A DNA stretch of 64,000 nt from Agromyces humatus (GTDB lineage Bacteria > Actinomycetota > Actinomycetes > Actinomycetales > Microbacteriaceae): positions 248,001 through 312,000 of the forward strand of contig NZ_JAJQPD010000002.1 of assembly GCF_021228295.1 (NCBI RefSeq), in the 5' to 3' direction. Positions 52,355 to 61,531 of the stretch are shown piece by piece. The stretch's first letter is position 1, and each line of letters begins with the position of its first letter. The notes beneath the pieces are model-generated. The model was given only the letters and a program-made list of their open reading frames with translations, had not been told where the DNA came from and made no database searches. Made by a program: the position numbers and the translations under genes.

Positions 52355-52376
52355 AGTCTAAAGAGGCCCACCGACA
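52355..52376 (-). promoter_or_regulatory. PafBC (RecA-NDp)-type DNA-damage promoter of uvrA
   Basis: Minus strand: TGTCGGTG (52376-52369), 8 bases, TAGACT (52360-52355), 6 bases, GTG. It matches the published TTGTCRGTG-N8-TANNNT form at all but the first T. Confidence 0.8.
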
Positions 52377-54495: not shown

Positions 54496-54517
54496 AGTCT
54501 AGGAGCGGCCACCGACA
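54496..54517 (-). promoter_or_regulatory. PafBC (RecA-NDp)-type DNA-damage promoter of uvrB
   Basis: Minus strand: TGTCGGTG (54517-54510), 8 bases, TAGACT (54501-54496), 6 bases, ATG. It starts directly after the coaE stop codon and has the same arrangement as the uvrA promoter. Confidence 0.8.
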
Positions 54518-57023: not shown

Positions 57024-58697
57024 TCAGCCGAGGAGCGCCGATCTGAGCGTGTCGAGCCCGACCCCGCCGAGACCCAGCGCCCGGCGGTGGAACTCGCGGA
57101 TGTCGAACGACGCGCCCTCGCGGCGCGCGAACTCGTCGCGCAGCTGCTCCCAGATGCGCTGCCCCACCTTGTACGACGGCGCCTGGCCCGGCCAGCCGAG
57201 GTACCGATTGACCTCGAAGTGCACGAAGCCCGCGTTCATGTTGACGTTCTGGGCGAGGAACTCGAACGCGTAGTCGCCGGTCCAGATGCCATTGCCGTCG
57301 GGTCGCTGCTTGCCGAGGTGCACGCCGATGTCGAGCACCACCCGGGCGGCGCGCATGCGCTGGCCGTCGAGCATGCCGAGGCGATCGGCAGGATCGTCGA
57401 GGTACCCGAGCGACTGCATGAGCCGTTCGGCGTAGAGCGCCCAGCCCTCGGCATGACCCGACGTTCCGGCGAGCTGGCGGCGCCAGGTGTTGAGCTGCCC
57501 CCGGTTGACGACCGCCTGCCCGATCTGCAGGTGGTGGCCCGGGACGCCCTCGTGGTAGACGGTGGTGAGTTCGCGCCACGTGTCGAACTCGGTGACGCCC
57601 TCGGGCACCGACCACCACATGCGCCCGGGGCGCGAGAAGTCGTCGCTCGGCCCGGTGTAGTAGATGCCGCCCTCTTGCGTGGGCGCGATCATGCACTCGA
57701 GCGTGCGGATCTCGGCGGGGATGTCGAACTTGGTTCCGGCGAGTTCGGCGACCGCGCGGTCGCTCGTCTCCTGCATCCACCGCTGCAGGGCGTCGGTTCC
57801 GTGAAGCTTGCGGCTCGGGTCGGCGTCGAGCAGGGCGATCGCCTCGGCGACGGATGCCCCGGGCTTGATCTCGTTCGCGATGGACTCCTGCTCGGCGACC
57901 ATGCGCGCGAGCTCGTCGACGCCCCACTCGTAGGTCTCGTCGAGGTCGATCGCGGCACCGAGGAAGTGCCGCGACTGCAGTGCGTAGATGTCGCGCCCGA
58001 CCGCATCCTGATCGCGGGCAGCGGGCTGGAGCTCGGCTTCGAGGAAGTCGGCGAGCCGGCCGTAGGCCGCCGAGGCCTCGACCGCTCCCGCGCCGAGGTG
58101 CCGCTTGAGCGGCTCGGGGAGTTCGGCGTCGCCCGCCTTCGCCGACCCCGTGAAGCTGCCGAAGAACCCATCGGGTCGCGCATGCTTGCGCACCTGCGTC
58201 GCGACCTCGCGCACCTGGCGTACTGCCGGGACGATTCCCTGACCCACGCCCTCGCGCAGGGTCTCGACGTAGCCGTCGATCGCTCGGGGCACCGCGTGCA
58301 GGCGCGTGGCGATGCGTTCCCACTCGGCAGGGTCGTCGGTGGGCATGAGGTCGAACACCTCGCGGATCTCTTGTGCCGGGCTGGCGATGACGTTGAGGTC
58401 GCGCAGGTGGAGGCCGGCGTCGTGCTGCTCGAGTTCGAGTTCGAGCTCACTGCCGAGATCGGCGATCGTGATGCGGTCGATGTCGTCGACGGGTGTGGCG
58501 CCACGAAGCGCGGCGAGTGCCTCACGCGTCGCCGCGACCATGCGCTCGTGCCCGGCCGGCGAATAGTCGGCGAGGCGCTCGTCTTCGGAGGTGCGGCCGA
58601 TGTACGTGCCGATGCCCGGGTTCAGCACGACGAGCGTGTCGACCCACCCCTCGGCGATTCGATCGACGTCGGACGGGGTGCGTGCACTCGAAGACAT
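57024..58697 (-). CDS. DUF885 family protein, predicted zinc metallopeptidase
   Basis: A 557-residue protein of the DUF885 family, a large, mostly helical group with a gluzincin-like HExxxxH-type site; here it reads TVYHEGVPGHHLQIG in the second half. The N-terminus (SARTPSDVDRIAEGWVDTLVVLNPGIGTYIGR) has no signal peptide, so the protein should be cytosolic. The C-terminus includes NMNAGFVHFEVNRYLGWPGQAPSYKVGQ, conserved in the family, where it probably covers the active site. The biological substrate is unknown. The ATG at 58697 follows a TATGCT box by seven bases. It lies downstream of polA but has its own PafBC-type promoter in the 112-nt gap. Confidence 0.9.
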   Translation of the reverse strand: MSSSARTPSDVDRIAEGWVDTLVVLNPGIGTYIGRTSEDERLADYSPAGHERMVAATREALAALRGATPVDDIDRITIADLGSELELELEQHDAGLHLRDLNVIASPAQEIREVFDLMPTDDPAEWERIATRLHAVPRAIDGYVETLREGVGQGIVPAVRQVREVATQVRKHARPDGFFGSFTGSAKAGDAELPEPLKRHLGAGAVEASAAYGRLADFLEAELQPAARDQDAVGRDIYALQSRHFLGAAIDLDETYEWGVDELARMVAEQESIANEIKPGASVAEAIALLDADPSRKLHGTDALQRWMQETSDRAVAELAGTKFDIPAEIRTLECMIAPTQEGGIYYTGPSDDFSRPGRMWWSVPEGVTEFDTWRELTTVYHEGVPGHHLQIGQAVVNRGQLNTWRRQLAGTSGHAEGWALYAERLMQSLGYLDDPADRLGMLDGQRMRAARVVLDIGVHLGKQRPDGNGIWTGDYAFEFLAQNVNMNAGFVHFEVNRYLGWPGQAPSYKVGQRIWEQLRDEFARREGASFDIREFHRRALGLGGVGLDTLRSALLG

Positions 58698-58704
58698 AGG
58701 TGCG

Positions 58705-58726
58705 AGCATATGGCAGCCCGCCGACA
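58705..58726 (-). promoter_or_regulatory. PafBC (RecA-NDp)-like promoter of the DUF885 gene
   Basis: Minus strand: TGTCGGCG (58726-58719), 8 bases, TATGCT (58710-58705), 7 bases, ATG. It has the same geometry as uvrA, uvrB and polA, with C for T at one position of the upstream element, as in polA. Confidence 0.65.
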
Positions 58727-58809: not shown

Positions 58810-61503
58810 TCAGTGCGCGGCGTCCTCCCAGTTCGCACCGCGCCCGATCTCGACATCGAGGGGTACGAGGAGGTCGGCCGCGCTCGCCATGCGGTCGCGC
58901 ACGATCGCCTCGAGCGACTCGGACTCACCGTGGGCGACCTCGAAGATGAGCTCGTCGTGCACGGTGAGCAGCATTCGGCTGCCGAGCCCCTGCGCGGCGA
59001 TTTCGGATTCGACCCCGACCATCGCGATCTTCATGACATCTGCGGCCGAGCCTTGGATGGGCGAGTTCAACGCGGCCCGTTCGGCGTTCTCGCGAAGCAC
59101 GCGATTGGGGCTGTTCAGATCGGGGAACGGACGTCGACGGCCGAAGATGGTCTCGGTGTAGCCGTCGACCTTCGCCTGTTCGACGACGCCGCGCAGGTAG
59201 TCGCGAACGGCACCGAACCGCTCGAAGTACTCGCGCATGAGCTGCTGCGCCTCGGCACGCTCGATGCGCAGCTGCTTCGAGAGCCCGAATGCGCTGAGGC
59301 CGTAGGCGAGGCCATAGGACATCGCCTTGACCTTCGTGCGCATGAGCGGCGTGACGTCGGCCGGGTCGACCGAGAACACCCGCGCTCCGACGAAGCGGTG
59401 CAGGTCTTCACCCGCATTGAACGCCTCGATGAGCCCCGGGTCGCCGGAGAGGTGCGCCATGATGCGCATCTCGATCTGCGAGTAGTCGGCGGTCAGCAAC
59501 TCGACGAACTCGGGACCATGCCGGAACGCCTTGCGGATGCGCCGACCCTCGGCCGTGCGGATCGGGATGTTCTGCAGATTCGGATCGTTGGACGACATGC
59601 GACCGGTCGCGGCGCCGACCTGTCCATAGGTCGTGTGGATGCGTCCGTCGGAACCGATCGCCTTGTCGAGCGACTCGACGATCTGGCGGAGCTTCGTCGC
59701 GTCGCGGTGTTCGAGCAGATAGCCGAGGAAGGGGTGCGGGTTGGAATCCTGCAGGTCGGCCAGCGCACTCGCATCGGTCGTATAGCCCGTCTTCGTGGCA
59801 CGGGTCTTCGGCATGCCGAGCTGGTCGAACAACACTTCCTGCAGCTGCTTCGGCGAACCGAGGTTGACCTCGCGTCCGATCTCGGCGTACGCCAGCTGCG
59901 CCAACCCGGCGGCTCGGTCGCCGAGCTCGGACGAGAGCGCCGAGAGCTCGGGGTGGTCGACCGTGACGCCGCGCAGCTCCATGGCGGCGAGCACCGGGAG
60001 CAACGGCATCTCGACCTCGGCGAGGAGCCGACGCGAGTTCTCGGACAGCGCCCGCAGCACGACGGGCGCAAGGCGCACCGAGTACCAGGCGTATTCGGGT
60101 GCGCCGGCGTCGCTGCCCTCTTCGGGGACGAGCAGCGACGGGTCGCTCTCGGGAACGGTCTCGCCGAGGTGGAATGAGACGAGGTCGGCGAGCGACTTCT
60201 CTTGCAGCGCCGGGCGCACGAGCCATCCGGCCACGAGTGGGTCGAGCACGAGACCGGCGAACGCCAGGCCAGACCTCGTCAGCGCCTTCAGTTGCCCCTT
60301 GGCGTCGGAGACGATCTTCGGGGCGTCGCTGGCGAGCCATGCCTCGAAGGGTGCGTATTCGGGTCGACCCGCCTGCCACGGAACCCGCACCGACTCGTCG
60401 GCCGTCGCGATTCCCGCCCCGATCACCTGACCGTCGAGCACGTCGAGGCTGAGGCCCAGACCGGCGGGCTCGGCCGCGGCGGCGCGTTCGAGCCAGCCCC
60501 CCAGCTCATCGCCGACCAACGCACGCGAAACCGGTGCATCGGGAACGGGCACGACCTCGGTCGCGACGGTTTCGACCGGCGCGGCTGCGGTCACGCCGTT
60601 GCCGTTGGATTCACCCGCGGCGAGCTTGGTCAGACGCTCGAGGAGCGTGCGGAACTCGAGCCGTTCGAAAAGCGGACGGACCGACTCGACGTCGACCGGC
60701 TTCGCGGCGAGGTCGGCGATCACGACATCGATCGGCACGTCTGGCACGAGACGGTTGAGCCGTCGGTTGCGCTCGGCGTTCTCGCGCTGGTCGCGCAGGT
60801 TCTGGCCGGCGACGCCCTTGATCTCGTCCGCGTGGGCGAGGACGCCCTCGAGATCGCCGTAGAGGCCGAGCCACTTGACCGCGGTCTTCTCACCGACCTT
60901 CGTGATGCCGGGAAGGTTGTCGCTGGCCTCGCCGACGAGGGCGGCAACGTCGGGATACTGCTCGGGGCGGATGCCGTAGCGCTCGATGACGGCAGCCGTG
61001 TCGTAGCGCTTGAGCTGCGAGACGCCCTGGGTGTTCGGGTACAACAGGGTCACGTCGTCATTGACGAGCTGGATGGTGTCGCGGTCGCCCGAGACGAGGA
61101 GCACCCGATACCCCTCATCGACGCCCCTCGCGGCGAGGGTCGCGAGGATGTCGTCGGCCTCGAAGTCCTCTTTCTCGATCGTGCGAATGCCCATGGCCTG
61201 CAGCGCATCCTGGAGAAGCGGGACCTGCCCCTTGAACTCGGCCGGAGTCTCGCCTCGATTGCCCTTGTACTCGGCGTACTCGCGCGTGCGGAAGGACTGG
61301 CGCGACATGTCGAATGCGACCGCGAGGTGCGTCGGCTTCTCGTTGGCGAGCAGCAGCAGCAGCATCGAGAGGAACCCGTGGATCGCGTTCGTGTGCTGCC
61401 CGTCGCGCGTCGAGAAGCTGTCGACGGGGAGGGCGTAGAAGGCGCGAAAGGCCAGTGAATGGCCGTCGATCACGAGGAGGGTTGGCTTATCTGCGTCCGA
61501 CAC
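58810..61503 (-). CDS. polA: DNA polymerase I
   Basis: Repair and Okazaki-fragment polymerase. The 897-residue protein has an N-terminal 5'-3' exonuclease (LLVIDGHSLAFRAFYALP; DDILATLAARG; a helix-hairpin-helix region NLPGITKVGEKTAVKWL), a middle domain in which I see no intact DEDD proofreading motif, as is usual in actinobacteria, and a C-terminal polymerase domain with motif A DYSQIEMRIMAHLSGD near 672, the O-helix region RTKVKAMSYGLAYGLSAFG, and motif C HDELIFEV near 848. GTG start six bases after TAGTCT, with a PafBC-type element, so it is probably damage-inducible and leaderless. Confidence 0.98.
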   Translation of the reverse strand: MSDADKPTLLVIDGHSLAFRAFYALPVDSFSTRDGQHTNAIHGFLSMLLLLLANEKPTHLAVAFDMSRQSFRTREYAEYKGNRGETPAEFKGQVPLLQDALQAMGIRTIEKEDFEADDILATLAARGVDEGYRVLLVSGDRDTIQLVNDDVTLLYPNTQGVSQLKRYDTAAVIERYGIRPEQYPDVAALVGEASDNLPGITKVGEKTAVKWLGLYGDLEGVLAHADEIKGVAGQNLRDQRENAERNRRLNRLVPDVPIDVVIADLAAKPVDVESVRPLFERLEFRTLLERLTKLAAGESNGNGVTAAAPVETVATEVVPVPDAPVSRALVGDELGGWLERAAAAEPAGLGLSLDVLDGQVIGAGIATADESVRVPWQAGRPEYAPFEAWLASDAPKIVSDAKGQLKALTRSGLAFAGLVLDPLVAGWLVRPALQEKSLADLVSFHLGETVPESDPSLLVPEEGSDAGAPEYAWYSVRLAPVVLRALSENSRRLLAEVEMPLLPVLAAMELRGVTVDHPELSALSSELGDRAAGLAQLAYAEIGREVNLGSPKQLQEVLFDQLGMPKTRATKTGYTTDASALADLQDSNPHPFLGYLLEHRDATKLRQIVESLDKAIGSDGRIHTTYGQVGAATGRMSSNDPNLQNIPIRTAEGRRIRKAFRHGPEFVELLTADYSQIEMRIMAHLSGDPGLIEAFNAGEDLHRFVGARVFSVDPADVTPLMRTKVKAMSYGLAYGLSAFGLSKQLRIERAEAQQLMREYFERFGAVRDYLRGVVEQAKVDGYTETIFGRRRPFPDLNSPNRVLRENAERAALNSPIQGSAADVMKIAMVGVESEIAAQGLGSRMLLTVHDELIFEVAHGESESLEAIVRDRMASAADLLVPLDVEIGRGANWEDAAH

Positions 61504-61509
61504 CCGACA

Positions 61510-61531
61510 AGACTACAAGCGGCCGCCGACA
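61510..61531 (-). promoter_or_regulatory. PafBC (RecA-NDp)-type DNA-damage promoter of polA
   Basis: Minus strand: TGTCGGCG (61531-61524), 8 bases, TAGTCT (61515-61510), 6 bases, GTG. The leader length is zero if transcription starts at the usual distance. Confidence 0.75.

Follow-up and report, generated by a model that had tools for sequence, protein, structure and literature searches.

The DUF885 gene that lies directly behind polA in Agromyces humatus has a PafBC-type element of its own, and the explanation favoured here, with moderate confidence, is that it is a clade-limited gene of the PafBC regulon with a leaderless promoter and a zinc-peptidase-like product. Because the upstream half-site of the element is kept in one branch of Agromyces, to which the window (the whole 64-kb stretch of DNA analysed) belongs, and in one other genus, and is missing in most relatives, the gene looks, as far as sequence can tell, like a local rather than a core member of the damage response. 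The features concerned, by position in the window, are:

58719..58726, minus strand: upstream PafBC/RecA-NDp half-site TGTCGGCG, a consensus match, with GTCGGYG in 6/6 window-clade genomes
58711..58718, minus strand: 8-nt spacer GGCTGCCA, with TG at -5/-4 partly conserved
58705..58710, minus strand: -10 hexamer TATGCT, which is TAGGCT in most relatives
58698..58704, minus strand: 7-nt stretch from the -10 to the ATG, of conserved spacing, predicting a leaderless transcript
57024..58697, minus strand: DUF885 protein, 557 aa, zinc-peptidase-like
57531..57554, minus strand: HEGVPGHH, the candidate zinc site (residues 382-389), in which V385 alone varies among 36 sequences
58810..61503, minus strand: polA, directly upstream of DUF885 on the same strand
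61510..61531, minus strand: polA PafBC-type promoter, TGTCGGCG-N8-TAGTCT
54496..54517, minus strand: uvrB PafBC-type promoter, TGTCGGTG-N8-TAGACT
52355..52376, minus strand: uvrA PafBC-type promoter, TGTCGGTG-N8-TAGACT

The element and its genomic setting

The initial annotation had described a TGTCGGCG-N8-TATGCT element ending seven bases before the DUF885 start codon, in a 112-nt gap after polA, and the sequence bears this out in every particular: the element occupies 58705-58726 on the minus strand, 7 nt 5' of the ATG at 58697, and polA ends at 58810. The coding sequence itself is 57024-58697, the end at 58726 given earlier taking in the promoter element. A search with TGTCGGNG-N{7,9}-TATGNT returns one match in the 64-kb window and none in any of 100 dinucleotide shuffles. 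The element agrees with those of uvrA, uvrB and polA in its octamer, its spacer and how far it lies from the start, and its half-site scores 11.9 on a weight matrix built from 99 half-sites, all of uvrA or uvrB, for which the 5th percentile of the training sites is 8.3. The annotation had also pointed to a C-for-T change shared with polA. C does stand at position 7 of the octamer in the polA copy as well, but all four bases occur there freely across uvrA, uvrB and polA sites (T 51, C 54, A 41, G 9), so the match carries no information and was dropped as evidence.

No sigma-70 housekeeping promoter with a -35 was found in a promoter scan of the polA-DUF885 gap, and no conserved -35 was seen upstream of DUF885 in the comparison of loci. 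A TG dinucleotide 4-5 bases 5' of the -10 is partly conserved beyond the carriers of the half-site (T 0.3 bits, G 0.7 bits), and it is present in the spacer in all six genomes of the window clade.

Published studies quote the RecA-NDp/PafBC consensus as tTGTCRgtg-8 nt-TannnT (PMC5656591), describe the PafBC binding motif as closely resembling RecA-NDp (PMC8223512), have PafBC act through RecA-NDp to activate its targets (PMC6789036), and describe sigma adaptation and activation by ssDNA for PafBC (PMC11804915). Like these promoters, the DUF885 element combines the octamer, an N8 spacer and TANNNT, and it likewise shares its genome with recA, uvrA, uvrB and polA copies and with PafB and PafC; it differs in being phylogenetically patchy and in that the first T is often changed in relatives. 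In the genome pafB lies next to pafC, with tatC adjoining, and both proteins have hits to PafBC structures (6sj9, E 2.8e-36 and 2.4e-43), while an NCBIfam search gave no match for PafB, PafC or the DUF885 protein. With a PafBC-type half-site at exact N8 spacing and PafBC encoded in the genome, the earlier proposal of a damage-type promoter is supported in part. Among the literature matches listed, no paper is common to DUF885 and PafBC, and a search for PafBC combined with Microbacterium found none.

Across the 4.04 Mb genome, TGTCRGYG-N8-TANNNT has 17 matches (DUF885 and 16 others), and the reversed pattern has none. Thirteen of the 17 sit before a gene, and four have no convincing downstream gene. 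The element lies 6-7 nt before the start of uvrA, uvrB, polA, DUF885, orn and a UvrD-type helicase, and also of genes for a T5orf172-type protein, an alpha/beta hydrolase and a luciferase-like oxidoreductase; the distance is 10 nt for an AlkZ-like glycosylase, 28 for a RecB-like nuclease, 85 for a topoisomerase A subunit and 116 for recA. The T5orf172/MUG113-type gene (L012:916-1494 (-); G000:C9 near 379006) has its element 6 nt before the ATG.

Distribution of the half-site across Microbacteriaceae

The downstream part of the promoter is close to constant. TANNNT stands 6-8 nt before the DUF885 start in 131/136 Microbacteriaceae loci (56/57 Agromyces, 75/79 others) and in 5/5 loci from other families; under the rule applied, TANNNT 4-10 nt before an in-frame start, L156, L205, L206, L233 and L240 are without a -10. 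All counts quoted are from the main genome set, with which the locus set L048-L127 overlaps. With N8 spacing and a score of 4.5 or more (a threshold set after the scores were seen so that GGTCGGCG counts), the half-site is found in 19/56 Agromyces, in 0/5 loci of other families and in 11/75 other Microbacteriaceae. The last is not an unbiased rate, since four of its loci (three of the six from Herbiconiux, one Subtercola-like) joined the sample only once positives were known. At threshold 5 the counts are 16/56 and 10/75, and the first sample of other Microbacteriaceae, before the added loci, gave 6/55. The -10 is present and the half-site absent in 37/56 Agromyces and 64/75 other Microbacteriaceae loci. 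At 44 other spacers, half-sites number 0-3 (mean 0.30, maximum 3 in Agromyces and 2 in other Microbacteriaceae), and the base rate, taken from the loci's other TANNNT sites, is 28/2417 at threshold 5; the DUF885 half-site is thus far from universal and far above chance. These spacer controls and the TANNNT base rate were used in place of promoter-like starts of other genes, which were too few (3 and 10).

The half-sites of the core repair genes are steadier, with 52/55 Agromyces and 35/51 other Microbacteriaceae for polA, 49/49 and 18/18 for uvrB, and 29/29 Agromyces for uvrA. Exact TGTCRGYG before DUF885 is confined to 4/56 Agromyces (the window, L272, L143 and L290). Most of the genus lacks the element under the same gene order, the outcome that the initial annotation had itself set down as counting against its proposal; in L128, L130 and L273 (Agromyces, 85-87% protein identity), for example, polA lies directly upstream on the same strand and the -10 stands without a half-site. 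A. italicus (L051) is another relative that lacks the element. Across relatives in general, a tie between DUF885 and DNA damage is not supported. Conservation of the half-site against randomised flanks is seen in the window clade and in Herbiconiux, with the half-site in 6/6 genomes of each. In some loci the stop codon TAG of polA is itself the start of the DUF885 -10 (CAC-TAGGCT; L069:3989-3994, L115:994-999 and L125:3988-3993 in Microbacterium, and L273 in Agromyces), so that the half-site position falls inside polA.

In a tree of DUF885 plus polA (57 rows, 54 of them Agromyces; L136, L141 and L158, with no full polA/DUF885 pair, were left out), the window groups with L272, L275, L132, L134 and L277 in a clade of six (SH-aLRT 99). 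GTCGGYG stands at N8 in every member, and L272, whose DUF885 is 93% identical to that of the window, has TGTCGGTG-N8-TATGCT. The first base of the octamer is T in the window and L272, C in L275, L132 and L277, and G in L134; this T is invariant in 43 uvrB and 18 uvrA sites, so the DUF885 site may be weaker in the four genomes with C or G. Identity within the clade is 0.87 over the DUF885 half-site vs a mean of 0.31 (maximum 0.42) for upstream 8-mers, and in the same genomes it is 0.96 vs 0.41 for polA and 0.93 vs 0.49 for uvrB. The half-site in the window clade is conserved and probably functional. In the sister group of 15 it is partly lost (identity 0.45), and over the whole tree its presence is clustered, with 9 changes vs a mean of 15.5 and a minimum of 12 in 200 label shuffles.

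The other genus is Herbiconiux (genus code g33), in which 6/6 DUF885 loci have TGTCGG, in the form TGTCGGNG in five and TGTCGGCA in the sixth, with half-site identity of 0.87 vs an upstream mean of 0.27 (maximum 0.47), and in which no polA match was found in the ~3.6 kb upstream of DUF885. L212 (apparently the same as L099), named Herbiconiux and of genus code g62, has DUF885 without the half-site, and among Subtercola-like loci it is present in 2/5 and absent in 3/5.

Other element-bearing genes served as yardsticks under a looser rule, which allowed the best TANNNT anywhere between 130 nt upstream of the gene and 20 nt inside it, in the best 30 loci each; the gene is present in 60/60 Agromyces genomes for orn, 45/60 for the LLM oxidoreductase and 58/60 for AlkZ. 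Among these loci the element is found in 30/30 for the LLM oxidoreductase, 29/30 for the AlkZ-like gene and 19/30 for orn. The DUF885 half-site is found in 15/30 of the most similar Agromyces loci, which makes it the least constant of the four genes, not far below orn. By this measure the LLM oxidoreductase (L013:624-1493 (-); G000:C12 near 108340-108369), whose element precedes the start by 6-7 nt, is a more constant and more surprising candidate for the damage regulon than DUF885. The AlkZ-like DNA glycosylase gene (L004:1533-2735 (+); G000:C6:22404-23638) also carries the element. At orn (L011:1529-2146 (+); G000:C8:443006-443651), where the element is again 6-7 nt before the start, 7 of the 11 loci below score are TGTCCGAC variants.

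The DUF885 protein

The assignment to DUF885 holds: the protein matches PF05960 with E 3.4e-163 and 545.5 bits (cut-off 32.4) over profile positions 2-531 of 532, and the candidate zinc site HEGVPGHH is near-invariant, with H382, E383, G384, P386, G387, H388 and H389 the same in 36 aligned sequences. A second, distant DUF885 gene (138.9 bits) lies at G000:C1:146439-147926 (-) in the same genome. The AlphaFold model, of good quality (pLDDT 92.6, pTM 0.91), is closest to the solved structure 3iuk from Arthrobacter aurescens (Z 49.1, 56% identity), a member of the same DUF885 family titled 'protein of unknown function', from which the window protein shows no difference in fold. The next matches are the lipoproteins 3o0y and 3u24, followed by M32 carboxypeptidases, oligoendopeptidase F and ACE (Z 14.7 to ~10).

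In its predicted fold the DUF885 protein resembles the overall helical zinc-peptidase fold of the M32, M3 and M2 families (FisCP Z 14.7, oligoendopeptidase F 13.5, ACE 11.1), but it differs from them in sequence (~9-14% identity) and in having HEGVPGHH in place of HExxH. The M32 comparison (Z 14.7, rmsd 4.9, 335/557 residues aligned) is to be read with the caution that scores of this size can arise by chance between helical folds. M32 carboxypeptidases are defined by an HExxH zinc motif on one helix. In the DUF885 model one helix ends at 383 and the next starts at 388, breaking within HEGVPGHH, and because this zinc signature departs from HExxH the protein is not filed in M32. Pfam is reported to place DUF885 in the Peptidase_MA clan (PMC12572635). 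No functional study of DUF885 appears among the titles of the literature matches listed, and the paper found for PF05960 concerns a fungal pathway. Most plausibly, the gene encodes a cytosolic zinc peptidase that cleaves short peptides.

Competing explanations and significance

A somewhat unlikely reading is that DUF885 has a constitutive leaderless promoter of the -10 type only, the PafBC-like half-site being inactive or vestigial. The -10 in 131/136 Microbacteriaceae loci, most of which have no half-site, fits this, as do the four loci in which the polA stop codon opens the -10 and the half-site position is coding sequence. Against it stand the strong preference for N8 over other spacers and the identity of the half-site in the window clade, which is near that at polA and uvrB and far above its flanks, a contrast that Herbiconiux repeats. 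That some other activator, outside the damage response, uses the half-site is very improbable: C or G replaces the first T in 4/6 window-clade genomes, as such a reading would allow, but octamer, spacer and start distance are identical to those of uvrA, uvrB and polA, and PafBC is encoded in the genome.

Read-through from polA remains a simple rival, though quite improbable as the main route; DUF885 would then be damage-induced mainly from the polA PafBC promoter, its own half-site adding little. That promoter has its half-site in nearly all Agromyces, and DUF885 follows polA on the same strand across a gap of 9-156 nt in 53/55 of them. A scan of the polA-DUF885 gap found no intrinsic terminator, and hairpin folding there is not above chance (z -1.14), nor are hairpins enriched among the element-positive gaps, of which 16 were of sufficient length for folding (mean z 0.02). 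Actinobacterial terminators are often without a T run, which makes the terminator scan weak evidence. Strong hairpins do occur in some gaps without the element (z to -5.8), which speaks against read-through, as do the conservation of the DUF885 -10 and the presence of the half-site in Herbiconiux with no polA match in the ~3.6 kb upstream.

Under the favoured explanation, that of a clade-limited PafBC-regulon gene, DUF885 would be transcribed from its own leaderless promoter, whose conserved -10 would be an old feature. The half-site upstream of it (TGTCGGYG, N8) is preserved in the window clade and again in Herbiconiux, which may reflect either separate gains or retention. Once DNA is damaged, ssDNA-bound PafBC would link the half-site to the sigma-A RNA polymerase, and expression of DUF885 would be expected to rise with that of uvrA, uvrB, polA and recA. 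The clearance of peptides after damage suggested by the initial annotation may then be a role of the modelled peptidase. It is tentatively proposed, at well below even confidence, that the Agromyces clade and Herbiconiux, perhaps with some Subtercola, have separately put a DUF885 zinc peptidase under PafBC.

Orn clears short RNAs. Were the proposal true, peptide recycling would be a recurring, lineage-specific arm of the non-SOS damage response, in parallel to the element-bearing orn. If induction is real, a peptidase family with solved structures and no known role would gain a physiological context in bacteria, and the half-site, patchy where the -10 is fixed, would show clearly how 8 bases can bring a gene into a regulon and take it out again.
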